Made by a program: the position numbers and the translations under genes. From NCBI GenBank assembly GCA_016288205.1, contig JAEEYO010000059.1:62001-126000 (forward strand): a stretch of DNA of 64,000 bases, written 5' to 3'. Source of the DNA: Treponema sp. GTDB lineage: Bacteria; Spirochaetota; Spirochaetia; Treponematales; Treponemataceae. Of this stretch, positions 36,547 through 49,571 are shown one piece after another. Each line of letters starts with the position of its first letter. The first letter of the stretch is position 1. The notes below the pieces were generated by a model. That model had not been told where the DNA came from, made no database searches, and saw only the letters and a list, made by a program, of their open reading frames with translations.

Positions 36547-36598
36547 AGTGGAAAGTGGAAAGTGGAAAGCGGAAAGTGGAAAGCGGAAAGTGGAAAGA
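36547..36598 (+). repeat. GTGGAAA-type low-complexity repeat (copy 2)
   Basis: The cleanest copy: seven to eight tandem words alternating GTGGAAA and GCGGAAA. It lies between the divergent bactofilin 2 and ATPase genes, directly next to the 23-bp tandem repeats. Confidence 0.85.
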
Positions 36599-41687: not shown

Positions 41688-41707
41688 GGGTCATAAAGCA
41701 AATATAT
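41688..41707. repeat. Direct repeat, left copy
   Basis: GGGTCATAAAGCAAATATAT; 19 of 20 bases identical to 42060-42079. The two copies bracket the structured element at 41706-42012. Confidence 0.85.
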
Positions 41708-42012
41708 AAGGCAAGTGCAAATCTAAATTAAACTTGGGAAACACAAATCTAAATGAGGAAACGCTTCCATTTGCGGTGGGAACTGTGCCAAAAAATGCTA
41801 AAATGCACTCCCATCGAAGTCTGCCCCACAACAACGGCTCGTTTGAAGCTACGCTACGAATACCGCGCTACGCTTGTGCAGATGTTGTTGCATGTCAGCC
41901 TCCGATTCCGCACATTTTAGCATTATGTTAAAGACAAAAACCCCACCTCCATTACAGCGTTTCCTCAATCAACATTAGGTTTCCCATGTAAAAGTTATGG
42001 CACTTGCCTTAT
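41706..42012. repeat. About 305-bp imperfect inverted repeat, structured non-coding element
   Basis: Seven complementary blocks occur in the same nested order: 41706-41718 with 42000-42012 (ATAAGGCAAGTGC), 41735-41742 with 41979-41986 (TGGGAAAC), 41754-41765 with 41956-41967 (TGAGGAAACGCT), 41775-41780 with 41942-41947 (GGTGGG), 41795-41805 with 41913-41923 (ATGCTAAAATG) and 41829-41835 with 41884-41890 (CAACAAC), around a centre with two GCTACGC words. No coding frame is supported. This fills the only gene-free stretch over 300 bases in the window (41567-42167). It could be a structured RNA, a folded recombination site or a MITE-like remnant. Confidence 0.8.
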
Positions 42013-42059
42013 GCATGTTCTTTCACCATCATGTTTTAGATTAATACAAATTAACGACA

Positions 42060-42079
42060 GGGGCATAAAGCAAATATAT
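42060..42079. repeat. Direct repeat, right copy
   Basis: GGGGCATAAAGCAAATATAT, partner of 41688-41707, 372 bp apart. Lies between the structured element and the restriction-modification locus. Confidence 0.85.
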
Positions 42080-42167
42080 GAAAAGCATAAATCAAAAATA
42101 CTTCCCAAAAAATGTACTATAGAATTCATTTTTTTTTCGTTGAGCCTAAACCGGCGAAAAATATTCC

Positions 42168-42418
42168 TTACTTCTCCATTTCTTTTATGTAGTCTATGAA
42201 CTTTTTTATAGTCCAAATATCGCTTTGAAACTTTTTAGGGTATGTTTTTATATACTTTTCAGGAACAACCAAAACAACTTTTTCACTTTTCATTTCTTCT
42301 AATTGGGCAGAAGAAATTCCCTGCTGAAGTGTACACAAGAATTTATTTTTAGAGCGTAATCTGTCAGCTTCATTCAATACTTGCGCCAACGGTCTTTGCA
42401 GGCTACCTTACGCCACAT
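42168..42418 (-). pseudogene. Remnant of an EcoRII-type restriction endonuclease (C-terminus, frameshifted)
   Basis: Read from ATG 42418, the frame gives MWRKVACKDRWR and then hits a stop; one frame over, the sequence continues QVLNEADRLRSKNKFLCTLQ and LVVPEKYIKTYPK to a natural C-terminus at 42168. The pattern CKDRWRQVLNEADR...TLQQGIS...VVPE is the conserved end of EcoRII-type endonucleases (recalled family pattern). Joining the two frames needs one extra C in the run at about 42387-42392. The N-terminal part with most of the enzyme is absent. The neighbouring methyltransferase is of the matching Dcm/M.EcoRII type. Confidence 0.75.
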
Positions 42419-42421
42419 AAC

Positions 42422-42622
42422 TTAAAACTCCTCTTCCATAGCATCATTTTCATCTACAAATATTGTCTGCTCTTTTCCACAGCAAATTGTTAATACTTCA
42501 TAATTTATATCTGGATAACCAACTCCTGCATAATTGACGAACTTGATTTTAGCATGATGTGTACATTGTTCAATATCGCAATACCAAAAAATTGTATCAC
42601 CTATCTTAAATCTTGACTCCAT
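42422..42622 (-). CDS. Small protein of the restriction-modification locus, unknown
   Basis: 66 residues (MESRFKIGDTIFWYC start), predicted beta-rich with three Cys, one His-His and an acidic tail. No family recognised. It lies 10 bases after the HNH nuclease gene and just before the endonuclease remnant, all on the minus strand. Base composition is AT-rich like the rest of this locus, unlike the flanking housekeeping genes. Confidence 0.55.
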   Translation of the reverse strand: MESRFKIGDTIFWYCDIEQCTHHAKIKFVNYAGVGYPDINYEVLTICCGKEQTIFVDENDAMEEEF

Positions 42623-42632
42623 AACAACCTTC

Positions 42633-43403
42633 TTACCTTTTAAATATATAATCTCTGTGCCATTCTAAGAATTTGGTGTTGATATTATATTTTATTGGTT
42701 CAATCAGTTTTTTGTCCTCAATTGGTGCAAAATAAGCAGAATAGTATTCTTTTTCAATATTTGATTTTAACTTTGTTGATAACAAAACTTTTCTGTCATT
42801 TGAAAAACTTATGAGTCCAATATCAAAAGCTTTATCATATAATGATGATAAACATATTCCATTTTCCGGGTTTAATCGTTCTTTTTCATTTTCTGACCAT
42901 GGAATAATATGACTTGCAACTAAAAGTTCTGGCAAATCTATTCCTGTCAATGCACATTTACAGTCATAATTAGCAAGAACAATTTGACGAAATACATTTT
43001 GGTTGACACGTGTTTTTACTTGACGTATTTTTGTTTCGCCAGTTAGCCCCTGTGGAATATCTTCTATTACAGCCTCATACTTTTTTTCAATTGTTGTTCC
43101 TTCTTTAAGAGCAAGAATTCTTTCACTTTCGAAAAGCAGTTTTTCTCTATCATTAATAAATTCATTCCAGTATTCTTCACACTTTTTCCCACCATGACTC
43201 ATACCTGATATACCACGTTTTTTCAAAATCGGGTCAAAGGAAGCAAAGTTAACCAACCTAAGAGCAACTGCATTTGGTGTACGTCCTATGATTTTTGCCA
43301 TGTGAATGACATCTGGATTTTTTGCATCCATTTTTCCAAAAGACATTTTCAAATATAAATTAAGTACTAATATCATTTCTTCCCTTGTCCAAAGGTCTCT
43401 CAT
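42633..43403 (-). CDS. HNH endonuclease of the restriction-modification locus
   Basis: 256 residues. The C-terminal half carries an HNH nuclease core: YDCKCALTGIDLPELLVASHIIPW, then LNPENGICLSSLYDKAFDIGLI, with the catalytic His in ASHI, the Asn in NPENG and the final metal-binding Asp/His position in YDKAFD. The N-terminal part (WTREEMILVLNLYLKM) is a putative DNA-binding helical region. Such proteins commonly accompany cytosine methyltransferases as restriction enzymes. It starts 11 bases after the methyltransferase stop, so it probably is the active nuclease of this locus, with the EcoRII-like gene lost. Confidence 0.82.
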   Translation of the reverse strand: MRDLWTREEMILVLNLYLKMSFGKMDAKNPDVIHMAKIIGRTPNAVALRLVNFASFDPILKKRGISGMSHGGKKCEEYWNEFINDREKLLFESERILALKEGTTIEKKYEAVIEDIPQGLTGETKIRQVKTRVNQNVFRQIVLANYDCKCALTGIDLPELLVASHIIPWSENEKERLNPENGICLSSLYDKAFDIGLISFSNDRKVLLSTKLKSNIEKEYYSAYFAPIEDKKLIEPIKYNINTKFLEWHRDYIFKR

Positions 43404-43414
43404 TGTTTTACCCC

Positions 43415-44644
43415 TTATAAGTATGATTTAATAAATTTTGCAACAGCACAATGCAGAGGAACTACACTTGAATTAGCAAATAATATGTATGCCCTTGTAT
43501 CTGAAACAGGAATTATATAATCGTCAGGATACCCCATTAGTCTTGCACATTCTCGCGGGGTTAATCTACGAGGATTCCTATTTTCGCCTTGATAGACTAA
43601 AATTTCTGAGCCATCTTTGTAGTATCTGGCTGAAAGAGTTCTTGCTATATCATCTGGCTTTACCAACCCATATCCGAAACCGTTTCCCATTGAACGATGT
43701 TTTTGTGCATAAGCCTGCAAATAAGCCCACAGATTGTCAGTTAAGGTATATTTATCTAAAACTTTATTGTTTACAAAATCGAAATATTTATCTCCGTCTT
43801 GTATTAATTTTGGTTCCGTTCCATCTGTTTTATGCAGGATAGTTGATAGTTTTATTTCTCCTTTTGGAGGAAGCACCATATCATCCAACGAAAATTTTAT
43901 TTTATCTCGGAAACCTACAATTACGATTCTTTCTCTGTGTTGAGGAACCCAACACTGACCGTCAATTATTTTGTAATCACAAGTATAGCCTAGGTCTTTT
44001 GTAAGAGTTTCCCAAATCACTTCAAAAGTATGCCCTTTGTCATGGGATTTTAGGTTTTTAACATTTTCCAGAACAAAAACTTTCGGCTGTTTTTCTTTTA
44101 TGATTCTTGCAACATCAAAAAATAAAGTACCCTGTGTTTTATCTTCAAAACCTGTCGGTCTTCCCAATGACTTCTTTTTTGAAACGCCTGCAATAGAAAA
44201 CGGCTGACATGGGAAACCTGCTAGAAGTACATCGTGGTCGGGAATATCCGCCGTATTTACTTTTGTTATGTCACCATTAATCTGATGTTTTGAAGGATAG
44301 TTGTTGCTGTAAGTCTTTTGCGCATATTCATCCCATTCAGAAGTATAAAGGCATTTTCCACCAGCCTGTTCGAAGCCTTTGCGGATCCCCCCTATTCCTG
44401 CAAACAAATCAATGAATGTAAAATCTCCCTGTCTGTCATCATTGTCTTGTGCGGAAATTTTGCGCGAAAGCATATTTACAAGTCTGTCGGCTATAAAACT
44501 CTTTGGCTCAACACTACCATTCATCCATCGATGAATGGTACTTTGGTTTACTTGAAATTCCGTCGCAATATCTGCAATTGAATAAAGCTGTGAAACTTGT
44601 GAAAGCAATTCTGATATTGAGCCTTGAAAGAATGGTTGTTGCAT
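43415..44644 (-). CDS. dcm: DNA (cytosine-5) methyltransferase, Dcm/M.EcoRII type, with N-terminal HTH
   Basis: Methylates cytosine in DNA. I start at ATG 44644 because GGAGG is 5 bases upstream (409 residues); an ATG at 44710 exists. An N-terminal helix-turn-helix (IADIATEFQVNQSTIHRWMN) precedes the catalytic domain, as in M.EcoRII-type enzymes that repress their own gene. Motifs: FIDLFAGIGGIRKGF (I), GFPCQPFSIAG (IV, catalytic Cys), VLENVKNLKSHDKG (VI), PQHRERI (VIII), RRLTPRECARLMG (IX). Blocks such as GNGFGYG and LSARYYKDG closely follow E. coli Dcm, so CCWGG is the predicted site. Motif X reads FANSSVVP where FGNSVVVP is usual. Confidence 0.9.
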   Translation of the reverse strand: MQQPFFQGSISELLSQVSQLYSIADIATEFQVNQSTIHRWMNGSVEPKSFIADRLVNMLSRKISAQDNDDRQGDFTFIDLFAGIGGIRKGFEQAGGKCLYTSEWDEYAQKTYSNNYPSKHQINGDITKVNTADIPDHDVLLAGFPCQPFSIAGVSKKKSLGRPTGFEDKTQGTLFFDVARIIKEKQPKVFVLENVKNLKSHDKGHTFEVIWETLTKDLGYTCDYKIIDGQCWVPQHRERIVIVGFRDKIKFSLDDMVLPPKGEIKLSTILHKTDGTEPKLIQDGDKYFDFVNNKVLDKYTLTDNLWAYLQAYAQKHRSMGNGFGYGLVKPDDIARTLSARYYKDGSEILVYQGENRNPRRLTPRECARLMGYPDDYIIPVSDTRAYILFANSSVVPLHCAVAKFIKSYL

Positions 44645-44735
44645 AAGTTCCTCCGATAACATACTTGGGATATATAATTGCATTATGCAATATTTATTCC
44701 CCATTGTCAATTACGGGAGTACCCAAAATTTAGGT

Positions 44736-44744
44736 ATTATAACA
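44736..44744 (-). promoter_or_regulatory. Extended -10 promoter of the methyltransferase gene
   Basis: TGTTATAAT on the minus strand (44744-44736), i.e. an extended -10 with no convincing -35. The leader to the ATG at 44644 is about 85 bases, room for repression by the methyltransferase HTH. Confidence 0.4.
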
Positions 44745-44774
44745 ATTATGTTACTGTCACCTTCATTAATGAGA

Positions 44775-44814
44775 ATGGAAAGCTTTCCACTTTCCACTCT
44801 CCGTTTTCCACTTC
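44775..44814 (-). repeat. GTGGAAA-type low-complexity repeat (copy 3)
   Basis: TTTCCACTTTCCACTCTCC words directly after the stop of the surface lipoprotein gene and ahead of the methyltransferase promoter. Confidence 0.75.
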
Positions 44815-44815
44815 C

Positions 44816-47800
44816 CTACATTCTCTTTACCTTTGTCATGTCCACGGTTCCGTCCGCATAGTGGATGATCGTAGTGTAGTAGTTTCCCGCCGGAACACCA
44901 TAAAGATTGTCATAATCGTAGGTGAACGATGACGGCTCGCACCTGAGTCCGGTCTCCTCTGCATTTTCCAGCCACTTCTCATAAGAGTTTCCATAATCAT
45001 AAGTACTATAGAAAGTATGAACGAGCACGGGTTTATCTGAAAGAATCTCAATGCCTCGGCTTCCCTCAATGAAGTTCTTTTGCCTGCATTTAAATCCTGT
45101 TTCGAGGTAGTATGCCGGGCAGAAATACAGCGAATTATAAATTACGATTTGACCTTCCGTCTTTAATTCACCATTCTTATATATTGCATCCGTCTTATAC
45201 CAAGGCCGAGCAAAAACAAAAGTGTTTTTTTGTTCCGTGGTAAGAGTTAAAGCGCGTAAAAATGTATCGCCACTTCGTCCCATAGTGGAATGCTCCGGAA
45301 TTTCTTTCCATTCATTTTCAGAGCAATATTTCAGAATAATATTGCATGCCTCATCTCTATTGCCTCGCTCGCATTTTACATATAAAGTGCCATCAGATGA
45401 TTTTTCTGCATAAGGTTTTTCCACCATTTTCAAAACCATATACGGATATCTATATACAAGATAGTTACCATTGTTATCAAATACTCTCATATAAAGATAT
45501 ATTCCTGAAAGTCCAAGCAGTGAAACAGAAAAAGTACGCTCCGATGTACTGCGACCATATTCGTATGTGGCCGTCTTTATTCCGTCGCCTGTCCAGTCTA
45601 TTTTATCTTCAAGCCCTTTCTCATACGCAAGTGTATATTCGAAAGAAACGGTATAAACGGTGCGTATTCCACTTCCGCTGGAACTTGATTTTATTCCACT
45701 TCCCCCTTCATCATCTACAAATGGAAGATTCTGTCTGGTGTAACTAAACGTCAAGTCAGTCAGACTAGAGTCCTTCAAAGTAAGATTAGCCGTTGGAGGC
45801 AGATTGTCATTTTCTGCTGAACTCGTCAGATCTATGCTTACAGGTGATGTACATACGGACTTCCCGCTTGAGTTGAACGCATGAATTTCAAAATTCCAGG
45901 AGCAATACTGTGTAGGAATTTCAAAATCCTTGGAAATAGAAAATTCAGAAACAGTGTTTTTGGAATTTGAATACTTAATGGCATAGGTAAGTTTCGGATT
46001 CGGAGTGAAGCCGCTCGGGTATGAGATATGAACGGTTCTCTTTCCGGTGTTCTTTACAGGAGGATCAACGTTTACTGTGAAACTGGAAGGCAAATCCGCC
46101 GTCGTGGGGTTGGGATCCGCAGGAGGTGTTACCCCCTTATAGATGGTATAGGGTTTTCCGGCAGCACTGGAAAAAAGAGGAAGAGGAAAAATAATAAAAA
46201 CAAAAAACGACGTTGGCATACAGTAAATCTCATAGGTTCCATCAGGCAAATCGGATATATTAGCTGAATTAGTTAAATAGTCAGAGCCTTCGCCGTAAAC
46301 AATTTTAGTAAGTTCTATTTCAGATGTACTGGATGAAGCAGGGAAAGTATTAACAACTCTTGGTCTTGAAACCCGTCCGCTCGGATCAGTATAGACTATA
46401 TAAAACCACGGACACCAAGTTTCTTCAGTACCATCCGCATAAAAATTGTTTTTAGAATCAGGAGTTCCACTAAGCGTTAGAGTCCAGCTGTCACTTTCTT
46501 CCTTGCATGACAATATATCAATTCCTTTACTTATGTAGCCAACTGATTCAGATACATTTCCACAAGCATCCTTTGCTATTACTTTTACACATACATTCTT
46601 GCGTCTATCAACTGTAAAAGAAACATGTGGAAAATCGCCTTCTAATGTCGTTGCAGCTCCTAAATAATCAATAGTTTGATGCTCAATAGAAAAACTGTCC
46701 ACAGGCTTCATATTATTCTCATCGTAGCCCCAGTAAACCGAGGCCACATCAAACTTTTCATAATAGTTACAATCCCCTGACGCTGGTAGCGAAGAAATCT
46801 TGTAATGCTCTTTTCCATCCGCATCCACTATAAAACAAGGTAACCATTCATTTCTACTGTCTATTTGGTCAGTGAATAAAACTGGAAAGCTGTATGTATA
46901 ATTAAAGGAGCTGCTTTCAGCTATATTTGGATTCGGATCCATCAAAACATAAGAGAAAGAAAAAGACGTATCTTTGATAACATCAACAGTATTTCCATAT
47001 TCACTGCTGTTTCCGGCCCTGTCCTTTATGAAAAATGAAAGTTTCAGAACTCCGTCTTCGCCTGTCTTGAAGTCCAGTTTAAATGCCTTTTTAAAGTCCC
47101 TTGACATGGAAGGATTTTCAAAAACAGTCTTAAGGCCCGTAGCAGTCGGAACAGCAGTTCCATCCTGTTTTCTTATAAATTCCTCTTTTATTATGAACTC
47201 TCCCACACCGCTGGAGTCATCATCGGCTTCCACATAAACCCACAGGGAGTTCACGTGATGCTCTGTTATCGCGGCCGCCAGTTGGGCTGTGTCATAGCTA
47301 TAAGTCGCTTTTTTCGCATAAGTGGCAAAATCACCGAAACTGATAAGATTAGTTCCGTTTATGGCATCCTCTTCTGTCTTTGCCAAGCGCAGAGTCTTGA
47401 ATTCCGGCGGGGTTTCCTCCGTGGCAAAATAGCAATGTGGCTTTATTACAAGATTTTCCGACTCGCAGTTGAGCTGGGCCGTAACGGTAAGTTTATTTTT
47501 TTCACCGGACTGATTTGTAAAAGTAACGGCATCATCAAGAACCATATTCGTGGAAGAGTCAACGCAAACCCACTCAAGGAATCCCGCGTCGGAGGCTTTC
47601 GTAAATTCCAGGGAAAAAGAATCGCCCTTTATGACTGTAACTTGCGTAGGATAGACGGAACCATACTCCGGGGAGTCCACGGCAATGCGTATGTCAATTT
47701 TCTTGGCATTTGCACGTGCAATCTCATCCTCAATCTGCTGTTTGATTTCTCCGCCGGTAAGAAAATTCTGGCAGGATGTCAGCCCCCCCCTATCAAAAGT

Positions 47801-47835
47801 ATAGTAAACGCAAGTAAGGGTAAAATCTTTTTCAT
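44816..47835 (-). CDS. Large surface lipoprotein with a G8 tract in its signal peptide (out of frame here; predicted phase-variable)
   Basis: From ATG 47835 (GGAGG 8 bases upstream, promoter at 47904-47932) the product begins MKKILPLLAFTILLIGGG and stops at a TGA just after eight G (47790-47783). With 9 or 6 G it would continue LTSCQNFLTGGE, i.e. a perfect lipobox with Cys at LTSC, and then stay open for 1006 residues to 44816. The downstream part is beta-rich, with Ig-like repeats typical of secreted spirochaetal proteins. A frame starting at 47899 avoids the stop only by reading the leader and signal peptide in the wrong frame. So the gene is OFF in this sequence, unless the G count is an assembly error. 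Function unknown; surface exposure is inferred. Confidence 0.85.
47783..47790 (-). repeat. Homopolymeric G8 tract (C8 on + strand)
   Basis: Eight consecutive G on the coding strand, between the hydrophobic core and lipobox of the signal peptide. One added base restores the frame. This is the longest G/C homopolymer I saw in the window. Confidence 0.95.
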
Positions 47836-47903
47836 AATTGAGACCTCCAGTCACAAACTTAGGTAAATCAGAAACACTTTTTAAAAGTTTTCTCAACACC
47901 TAA

Positions 47904-47932
47904 AATATAACACAAGCTCCATCACTTTTCAA
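47904..47932 (-). promoter_or_regulatory. Promoter of the surface lipoprotein gene
   Basis: Minus strand TTGAAA (47932-47927), 17-base spacer, TATATT (47909-47904). The +1 is near 47897, so the ATG at 47899 cannot be the start and the GGAGG-ATG at 47835 is supported. Confidence 0.65.
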
Positions 47933-47970
47933 GCAAACACAAAAAATTTATTTAATTTTTTAGCTTTTCT

Positions 47971-48024
47971 CTCCCAACTCTCCACTCGCCCAAGCTTTCC
48001 ACTTTCCACTTTCATCGTTCCACT
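47971..48024 (-). repeat. GTGGAAA-type low-complexity repeat (copy 4)
   Basis: CTCTCCACTCG, TTTCCACTTTCCACTTTC words right after the end of the OLD-type nuclease gene. Confidence 0.75.
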
Positions 48025-49571
48025 TATCTGGCACACGCACTCTCAAGGATGGAAATCAGCTCGGCATACTCACGCCGCACATCAGCCTCATCCGCAGTCA
48101 AAAGATATTCCCTCTCGGCATGGAAAAGCCTGTCCTTCGACGCGACCGGCATGTACTGAACGTCCGACCTCCTGTAATAATGCTCAATGCAACCCCTCGG
48201 AAGAATGTAGACCGAAGCCGCCGCCGCACCCGCCACCACAATGGCAAAAAGATTCCTTATAATAGGAAGTGATTGCGCGGTCTGCTCTGGAAGATAAGTC
48301 TCAAGCTGGGTCTGCAAATCACCCTCGGCAATCACGCCCTGCAAAGAGACGGTTTTGAAAGTGTCAATGTTTTCCGAATGTACGTGCTTTTGATCAAGGG
48401 AATACAATCTCTCTGAAAGAAGCGCGATTTCAGGAGGCAGGTCATTCCGCTCATGAAGATTGCAAAGCTCACGTCCGAACACGGCAAGGAAACGCTCAAG
48501 ACGGAGCACGAGTTTTTCAAGGGTCACTTTATGATTTAGTTCCCTTGCCGTAAAAATCTTCTCATAAAAGGGACGCTGTTTTTCCTCCTGTTTTTCAAGC
48601 CACAACTCCGCCCTTTCGTCGGCACAAAAAACATCCCGGAGCTTTCCACCGAAAAGCGAGTCCAAATCCGTGATGATTCTGCTGTCGGTTCCAAGGAGAG
48701 AGCACACTTTGCAGAATACCCCCAGCTCGTCCTTTCCACCCACGTCGATTATTCCGGTCCCGGCCACACCGCGCTCGGTATGCACATAGGGAAGAAGGCT
48801 CGCGAACATCTGCTGGTCGGTATATCCCTCCACAAAAATCTGATTGTCGGAAAAGAAAAACTGCTTGTGGTAAGTGTTGAATCTTGGAAGAAAGCGACGG
48901 AAAAGCTCGGCGTCCTTTTTTCCCATGGACTCAATGTGCGTAGGCTCTCGGTTGGTATGGCACACAATCACCCCGAAAAGCTCATCCGGGAAACGCAGGT
49001 CAATGAAAAACGGCGAGTGGGTGATTACAAAATAAACACGCTTCGGATGCCTTGAAGAAACCCGGCGAAGCTCCTCGACGAAAAATTGCTGGAACTGAGG
49101 ATGAAGATGAAGCTCCGGCTCGTCAAAAACAAGGCAGGTGTTCCCTGTGTTCGCATAAAGAGCAACAAGCAGGGTGATGATTTCCTTCAATCCGTGACAT
49201 TCCACTTCCTGAAGATTGTACTCCACATTCCACGCACGGTTTTCCACCACAGGGATATAAGCCCCTTCCCCGGTCATCTTAAAAACGATTGTCTTACCGA
49301 ACATGCTCGAAAGCACGGTCTGCACTTTCTCACGGATTGCCTCGTTCTCCTGCAAGATGGAAATAGACTCGCTGTCGGAACCACGGTCGGCGCGCAGGAA
49401 TTTGACTGAGTACCCGGCTTCGGCAAACTGAGCGGATATGGCATCCACAAGAAGCGTCTTACCGGAACCGTTCGGCCCCACCACAAGATTGATATGAGAC
49501 CATTCGCTTTTTGAAAACACAGCCCTGCCCCACAAAAACGGCAGCTTGACTTTCACGGGAATCTTAACCAT
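48024..49571 (-). CDS. OLD-family ATPase/TOPRIM nuclease
   Basis: 515 residues from MVKIPVKVKLPFLWG. ABC-type ATPase: Walker A VVGPNGSGKT (about 30-39), signature region, Walker B TCLVFDEPELHLHP, and the H-loop in ITHSPFFID. Then a TOPRIM domain: FVEGYTDQQMF (Glu) and IITDLDSLFGG (DxD). This is the OLD (overcoming lysogenisation defect) layout; relatives cut DNA and several act in phage defence, e.g. with a UvrD-like helicase as in Gabija. No helicase partner is next to it, so it is a stand-alone class. The frame is open further upstream to 49709, but that part would overlap the divergent promoter. Confidence 0.85.
   Translation of the reverse strand: MVKIPVKVKLPFLWGRAVFSKSEWSHINLVVGPNGSGKTLLVDAISAQFAEAGYSVKFLRADRGSDSESISILQENEAIREKVQTVLSSMFGKTIVFKMTGEGAYIPVVENRAWNVEYNLQEVECHGLKEIITLLVALYANTGNTCLVFDEPELHLHPQFQQFFVEELRRVSSRHPKRVYFVITHSPFFIDLRFPDELFGVIVCHTNREPTHIESMGKKDAELFRRFLPRFNTYHKQFFFSDNQIFVEGYTDQQMFASLLPYVHTERGVAGTGIIDVGGKDELGVFCKVCSLLGTDSRIITDLDSLFGGKLRDVFCADERAELWLEKQEEKQRPFYEKIFTARELNHKVTLEKLVLRLERFLAVFGRELCNLHERNDLPPEIALLSERLYSLDQKHVHSENIDTFKTVSLQGVIAEGDLQTQLETYLPEQTAQSLPIIRNLFAIVVAGAAAASVYILPRGCIEHYYRRSDVQYMPVASKDRLFHAEREYLLTADEADVRREYAELISILESACAR

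Follow-up and report, generated by a model that had tools for sequence, protein, structure and literature searches.

What does a run of eight guanines do at the start of a large lipoprotein gene of a Treponema sp. when it throws that gene out of frame: has it broken the gene, or does it switch it? The tract lies on the minus strand of the window, by which we mean the whole 64,000-nucleotide stretch of DNA analyzed here. Our answer, which we consider likely although not certain, is that the tract acts as a slippage switch within the signal-peptide code of a large lipoprotein and that the gene is one of a set of similarly switched paralogues. The parts of the gene are listed below; the ribosome-binding site, tract, and lipobox were read from the sequence, the short frame from its translation, and the ACTATAC motif was identified by motif search and codon-level conservation.

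47904–47932, minus strand: promoter-like TTGAAA-17-TATATT with TG before the second hexamer (consensus match only, 10/12)
47844–47848, minus strand: GGAGG ribosome-binding site, 8 bases 5′ of the ATG
47779–47835, minus strand: reading frame from the ATG in the present (OFF) state, 18 residues and then TGA
47799–47805, minus strand: ACTATAC motif, 8 bases 5′ of the G tract
47783–47790, minus strand: G8 tract, the proposed switch
47771–47782, minus strand: lipobox LTSC, the opening codons of the long downstream frame
44816–47773, minus strand: mature lipoprotein (lipobox Cys through stop codon), with predicted tandem beta-sandwich domains and no known family

Starting from the ATG at 47835, the frame with G8 reads MKKILPLLAFTILLIGGG and meets TGA directly after the tract, and the downstream frame beginning LTSCQNFL stays open for 988 codons to a stop at 44816–44818 on the minus strand. 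This confirms the sequence-only reading of the locus, which had described a G8 frameshift and a stop in an otherwise well-equipped gene; the promoter, GGAGG, and start codon that it had placed upstream are present, with the reservation on the promoter given above. The start of the signal peptide encoded upstream of G8 is MKKILPLLAFTILLI. All the parts of a bacterial lipoprotein, namely the charged start and hydrophobic core (MKK...TILLI), the G tract, and the lipobox with its Cys (LTSC), are thus encoded, and they are joined only when the tract length is divisible by three, a prediction of the same reading that is correct by inspection and is realized in in-frame relatives. An open reading frame in frame with the lipoprotein had been extended by the software to 1027 codons, beginning at a GTG at 47899; this start is unconvincing, since the GTG comes 5 bases past the −10 box, close to where transcription would be expected to begin, and lacks a signal peptide. 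The criteria for a switch of this kind are a repeat within the coding sequence whose length sets the frame, length variation with both phases, a coding frame that is selected even though it is often out of frame, and reversible length change at a high rate inside one strain, which is inferred here. The window gene meets the first. The tract starts 45 bases past the A of the ATG, over 100 bases beyond the −10-like box; it is not placed like the promoter-type poly-G of T. pallidum, which sits either between −35 and −10 or a short way upstream of where transcription starts.

In the proposed mechanism, polymerase slippage at replication would add a G to the tract or remove one. When the resulting length is a multiple of three, the ribosome would read on from the hydrophobic core across two or three glycines to the lipobox, with export and lipidation of the lipoprotein to follow; at other lengths, translation would halt near the tract or continue out of frame. 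Reversible length change within one strain, export, and a lipid on the Cys are inferred. It had also been proposed that the one tract switches both translation and lipidation. The first part holds; lipidation is not switched apart from translation, because the OFF-state peptide of 18 residues ends at once.

When the read-through version of the window protein was used as a query against the same genome, it matched ten other places (one gene appearing as two rows). With the distant match C66 left out of the count, and after the starts had been read, the family in this genome has ten members, the window gene included:

Window gene: G8, out of frame
C21:170k: G9, out of frame
C73: G7, out of frame
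C6:9.9k: G10, out of frame
C67: G6, out of frame, plus a further stop
C21:81k: G9, out of frame
C7: G6, out of frame
C5:96k: G7, out of frame
C48: no tract, in frame
C6:16k: no tract, in frame

Eight members therefore carry G6–G10 between the hydrophobic core and the lipobox, and all eight are out of frame. Among all the Treponema genomes read, about 10 copies with a tract of at least six were in frame and 21 out of frame (10/31), not different from one-third, and the tractless copies of several Treponema genomes were essentially all in frame. The same division was found among 44 members fetched by protein homology alone, in which 4 copies with a tract of at least six were in frame and 10 out, and 25 with a shorter run were in frame and 1 out (Fisher p = 1e−5); two of the tract cases were read by eye, and the sole short-run exception, L198, has an uncertain start. 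Because the shorter-run members are nearly all in frame and the tract members mostly out, the frameshifts are a property of the tract, and the phase of the tract-bearing copies is about what free slippage would give. Zero in frame among this genome's own eight copies has p = 0.04 under free slippage; a bias to OFF in the population sequenced, some other form of control, or mere chance may lie behind it.

The simplest competing account, that the gene is a pseudogene merely broken by a frameshift, draws on the present state of the window gene and on the further stop in C67, but we consider it very unlikely. It leaves unexplained the 988 codons open downstream, and the same position is affected in eight paralogues whose tractless counterparts are intact. 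Furthermore, open frames of about 650–1000 codons persist in seven of the eight out-of-frame members, and although synonymous change over the first 110 codons of the out-of-frame paralogues is near saturation, dN/dS is 0.10–0.25 (roughly 0.1–0.3) in the better-aligned computable pairs (C6, C21:81k, C73, and C5 among themselves). The out-of-frame paralogues are under purifying selection and have spent much of their past expressed, so the criterion of a selected coding frame is met. That of length variation with both phases is met between paralogues and between genomes, not between alleles of the window gene. The pattern that had been named as refuting a switch, relatives permanently broken without length variation, was looked for in the relatives and not seen. 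Slipped-strand phase variation is thus supported by comparison, through the differing lengths of the paralogues, the phase ratio of about 1:2, the confinement of frameshifts to tract copies, and purifying selection.

An unlikely but more serious rival is slippage during expression, in which the RNA polymerase or the ribosome would yield some in-frame protein in every cell, giving a low constant level and no heritable switch. Such slippage would tolerate the finding that all eight of the genome's tract copies are out of frame and most of them conserved. However, a slippage site would be expected to favor one phase, and here lengths and frames vary freely at about 1:2; moreover, long tracts are kept in the in-frame members too. 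We therefore retain the heritable slippage switch as the preferred reading.

Runs of seven or more G are not by themselves exceptional in the window, where 3 matches were found in 64 kb against 5.5 expected. The tract exceeds chance because the same position carries it in eight paralogues and because long tracts genus-wide share the flanks ACTATAC and TA, signals that, like the islet described below, were absent from the sequence-only reading. Across the genus (116 genomes), 81 sites had ACTATAC with G8 or longer within the next 30 bases, compared with 6 for the reversed pattern, and the motif in the other orientation occurred at 15, compared with 3. ACTATAC was the commonest upstream 7-mer in an unbiased sample (14 of 146 long tracts), with TTGACAA second, whereas the commonest 7-mer of the shuffles had a mean count of 7.7 and a maximum of 12. 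Near short runs, taken as background from fetched loci and not from whole genomes, it was found at 10 of 9287 G3, 7 of 1986 G4, and 2 of 399 G5. TA directly followed 74 of 147 long tracts (50%) but only 5–9% of G3–G6 runs, and the reverse complement of ACTATAC also stood directly 3′ of some tracts. In the unbiased genus sample, 19 of the 147 tracts of at least eight led directly into a lipobox, including those of lipoproteins that look unrelated.

These flanks also bear on whether the tract lengths are an artifact of sequencing or assembly. Long G runs are error-prone, and this assembly contains two contigs that share an overlap of exactly 141 bases with a G run at its end. Nevertheless, the same pattern recurs in several independent assemblies, almost only in tract-bearing copies, and error would not produce conserved ACTATAC and TA flanks, so that we regard this explanation as extremely improbable. 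At the overlap itself (G000:C40:1-145 and C41:1-141; L302 and L303), C41 stops partway through the run, which C40 shows as G12; a branching of the assembly at this point would be consistent with a sample of mixed tract lengths.

Within the family, the motif was present in 11 of 14 members with a tract and in 6 of 30 without one (p = 5e−4). It is read in three frames, as ACT ATA C in the family, CAA CTA TAC in L074 and L084, and AAC TAT ACA in L098, and it also occurs outside genes. The Thr-Ile-Leu codons are exactly ACT ATA C in all 32 of the family signal peptides that contain them (about half of these loci were fetched by the motif; in the protein-only subset, the figure was 15/15 by our own count), whereas the Asn, Phe, and Leu of CxNFL are equally conserved but have mixed codons. 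Because of the different reading frames and the codon identity in 32/32, we conclude that ACTATAC is constrained as nucleic acid. The genes that motif-bearing tracts lie within or beside encode an FkbM methyltransferase, acyltransferase 3, a polysaccharide pyruvyl transferase, a short-chain dehydrogenase, a D12-class DNA methyltransferase, and a histidine kinase; further such tracts are found where several unrelated lipoproteins begin. The usual phase-variable repertoire comprises surface lipoproteins, surface sugars, and DNA methylation, and the gene content of the motif-bearing tracts matches it. In two genomes (L097 and L099), a HisKA_3 sensor kinase gene has G9 with the motif at its end, directly before an apparent gene for its response regulator.

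Several readings of the motif were rejected. As an ordinary −10 box, sense or antisense, it has too broad a spacing to the tract (0–17); for an antisense −10, the better form ATTATAC is missing from the top 7-mers; and in L106 the motif falls between a −35 and the tract. Shared peptide ancestry was set aside on the different frames in unrelated genes and the codon test, and a single inverted-repeat cassette, ACTATAC-tract-GTATAGT, on its restriction to one subgroup. It is possible, although we put it forward with considerable doubt, that ACTATAC just in front of the tract (or its reverse complement just behind it), combined with the TA that comes next, is a DNA address recognized by a dedicated factor responsible for creating, keeping, or destabilizing the tract; the main alternative, a regulatory site coupled to the switches by happenstance, is not excluded. 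If the address were real, phase-variable sites would be addressed by sequence and not by repeat length alone. No mention of the word ACTATAC was found in the literature searched.

Elsewhere in the class, ACTATAC at long tracts is rare, with a match in 9 of 148 genomes, three of these in Treponema. CTAGAC precedes 7 of 36 tracts, mostly in paralogous copies, in a 1.1-Mb genome from a different genus in the same taxonomic family. In G144 and G165, likewise from a different genus in that family, a long conserved block, TTAGAGATATT...TAATAGAG.AAAT, stands before many G8 tracts, so that the flank differs by lineage. The genus has a second class of long tract, in which TTGACA stands some 9 bases ahead of G8 and TATAAT or a similar sequence, where observed, comes after it (L106:2480-2520); the tract then forms part of the 17-base spacer of a promoter, as it does in tp0126 of T. 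pallidum. The genome of the window also carries a surface-sugar cluster with two tracts (L057:4849-13361, G000:C75:73-82 kb), one a G8, in frame, in an aminotransferase-like gene without a Pfam match; the other, a G10 in a hexapeptide transferase gene, appears to be out of frame. Furthermore, an unrelated 779-residue lipoprotein (L053, G000:C60:117383) has G8 in its signal peptide, in frame and without the motif.

No known family was found for the window lipoprotein in Pfam, NCBIfam, or PDB sequences, and a separate search of the genome contigs for relatives of the window protein, distinct from the read-through query, gave no match. A structure model from six family members, of low confidence (pLDDT 64, pTM 0.50), is a long chain of beta-sandwich domains, and Foldseek returned only generic Ig/FN3 and macroglobulin-type matches. 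We infer from the model a putative surface lipoprotein of tandem domains with an adhesin-like shape. Surface exposure and antigenic variation, the latter already suggested from the sequence, remain inferences, as does a use against phage, predators, or host immunity, or in adhesion.

The gene lies in an islet, whose features are as follows.

41692–48027: low-GC islet of 6.3 kb, absent from the sister genome G005
42633–43403, minus strand: HNH endonuclease (PF13391), in the islet
43415–44710, minus strand: C5-cytosine DNA methylase (PF00145), in the islet
44780–44813: 34-base direct repeat, just 3′ of the lipoprotein gene
47992–48025: 34-base direct repeat, just 5′ of the lipoprotein gene, the two copies being 85% identical

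The GC content is mostly 31–43% within the islet compared with about 50% outside. In the sister genome, the helicase gene directly adjoins the OLD-like ATPase gene, and the 6.3 kb between them are missing. The lipoprotein gene is accessory and was probably gained together with the islet; with the locus missing from the nearest relative, a true orthologue is not available for comparison. A dispersed repeat, GTGGAAAGTGGAAAG or a near variant, occurs at positions 36548, 44797, 48009, 58520, and 62087 of the window, two of its copies flanking the lipoprotein gene.

Phase variation is best known from human pathogens; here the relatives with names, T. ruminis and T. bryantii among them, are Treponema of the rumen and gut, and no paper on phase variation in rumen Treponema was found in the literature searched. 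In this commensal-type genus of rumen and gut, many lipoproteins and surface-sugar genes appear to be under G-tract switches, a matter of relevance to host and phage interaction in the rumen. ACTATAC, moreover, makes it testable whether repeat hypermutation is purely length-driven or is directed by a neighboring DNA signal.

The kind of switch is known, its setting and position were not found described for Treponema, and the conserved flank is unexplained. In Opa of Neisseria and OipA of Helicobacter, a repeat within the signal-peptide code switches translation, as proposed here, and Opa is a multi-copy family whose members are switched independently. Those repeats, however, are pentamers or dinucleotides in genes for outer-membrane beta-barrels, whereas the window gene has a G homopolymer before a lipobox, and we know of no flanking DNA motif at the Opa or OipA repeats. 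Poly-G tracts of T. pallidum (7–11 G) vary within isolates, and those studied at tprE/G/J, tprL, and tp0126 lie in promoters and tune transcription (PMC7864442). The present tracts resemble them in being poly-G of about 7–11, in Treponema, and at envelope-protein genes, but the window tract lies in coding sequence, in the signal peptide, and not in a promoter; the TTGACA-N9-G8-TATAAT form of tp0126 is found at some tracts of the genus and not at this one. The variable surface lipoproteins of Mycoplasma, such as Vpma, are shuffled by site-specific recombination (reviewed in PMC11868660). Like them, the window family consists of predicted surface lipoproteins that would be switched independently; unlike them, its predicted mechanism is slippage in a G tract.
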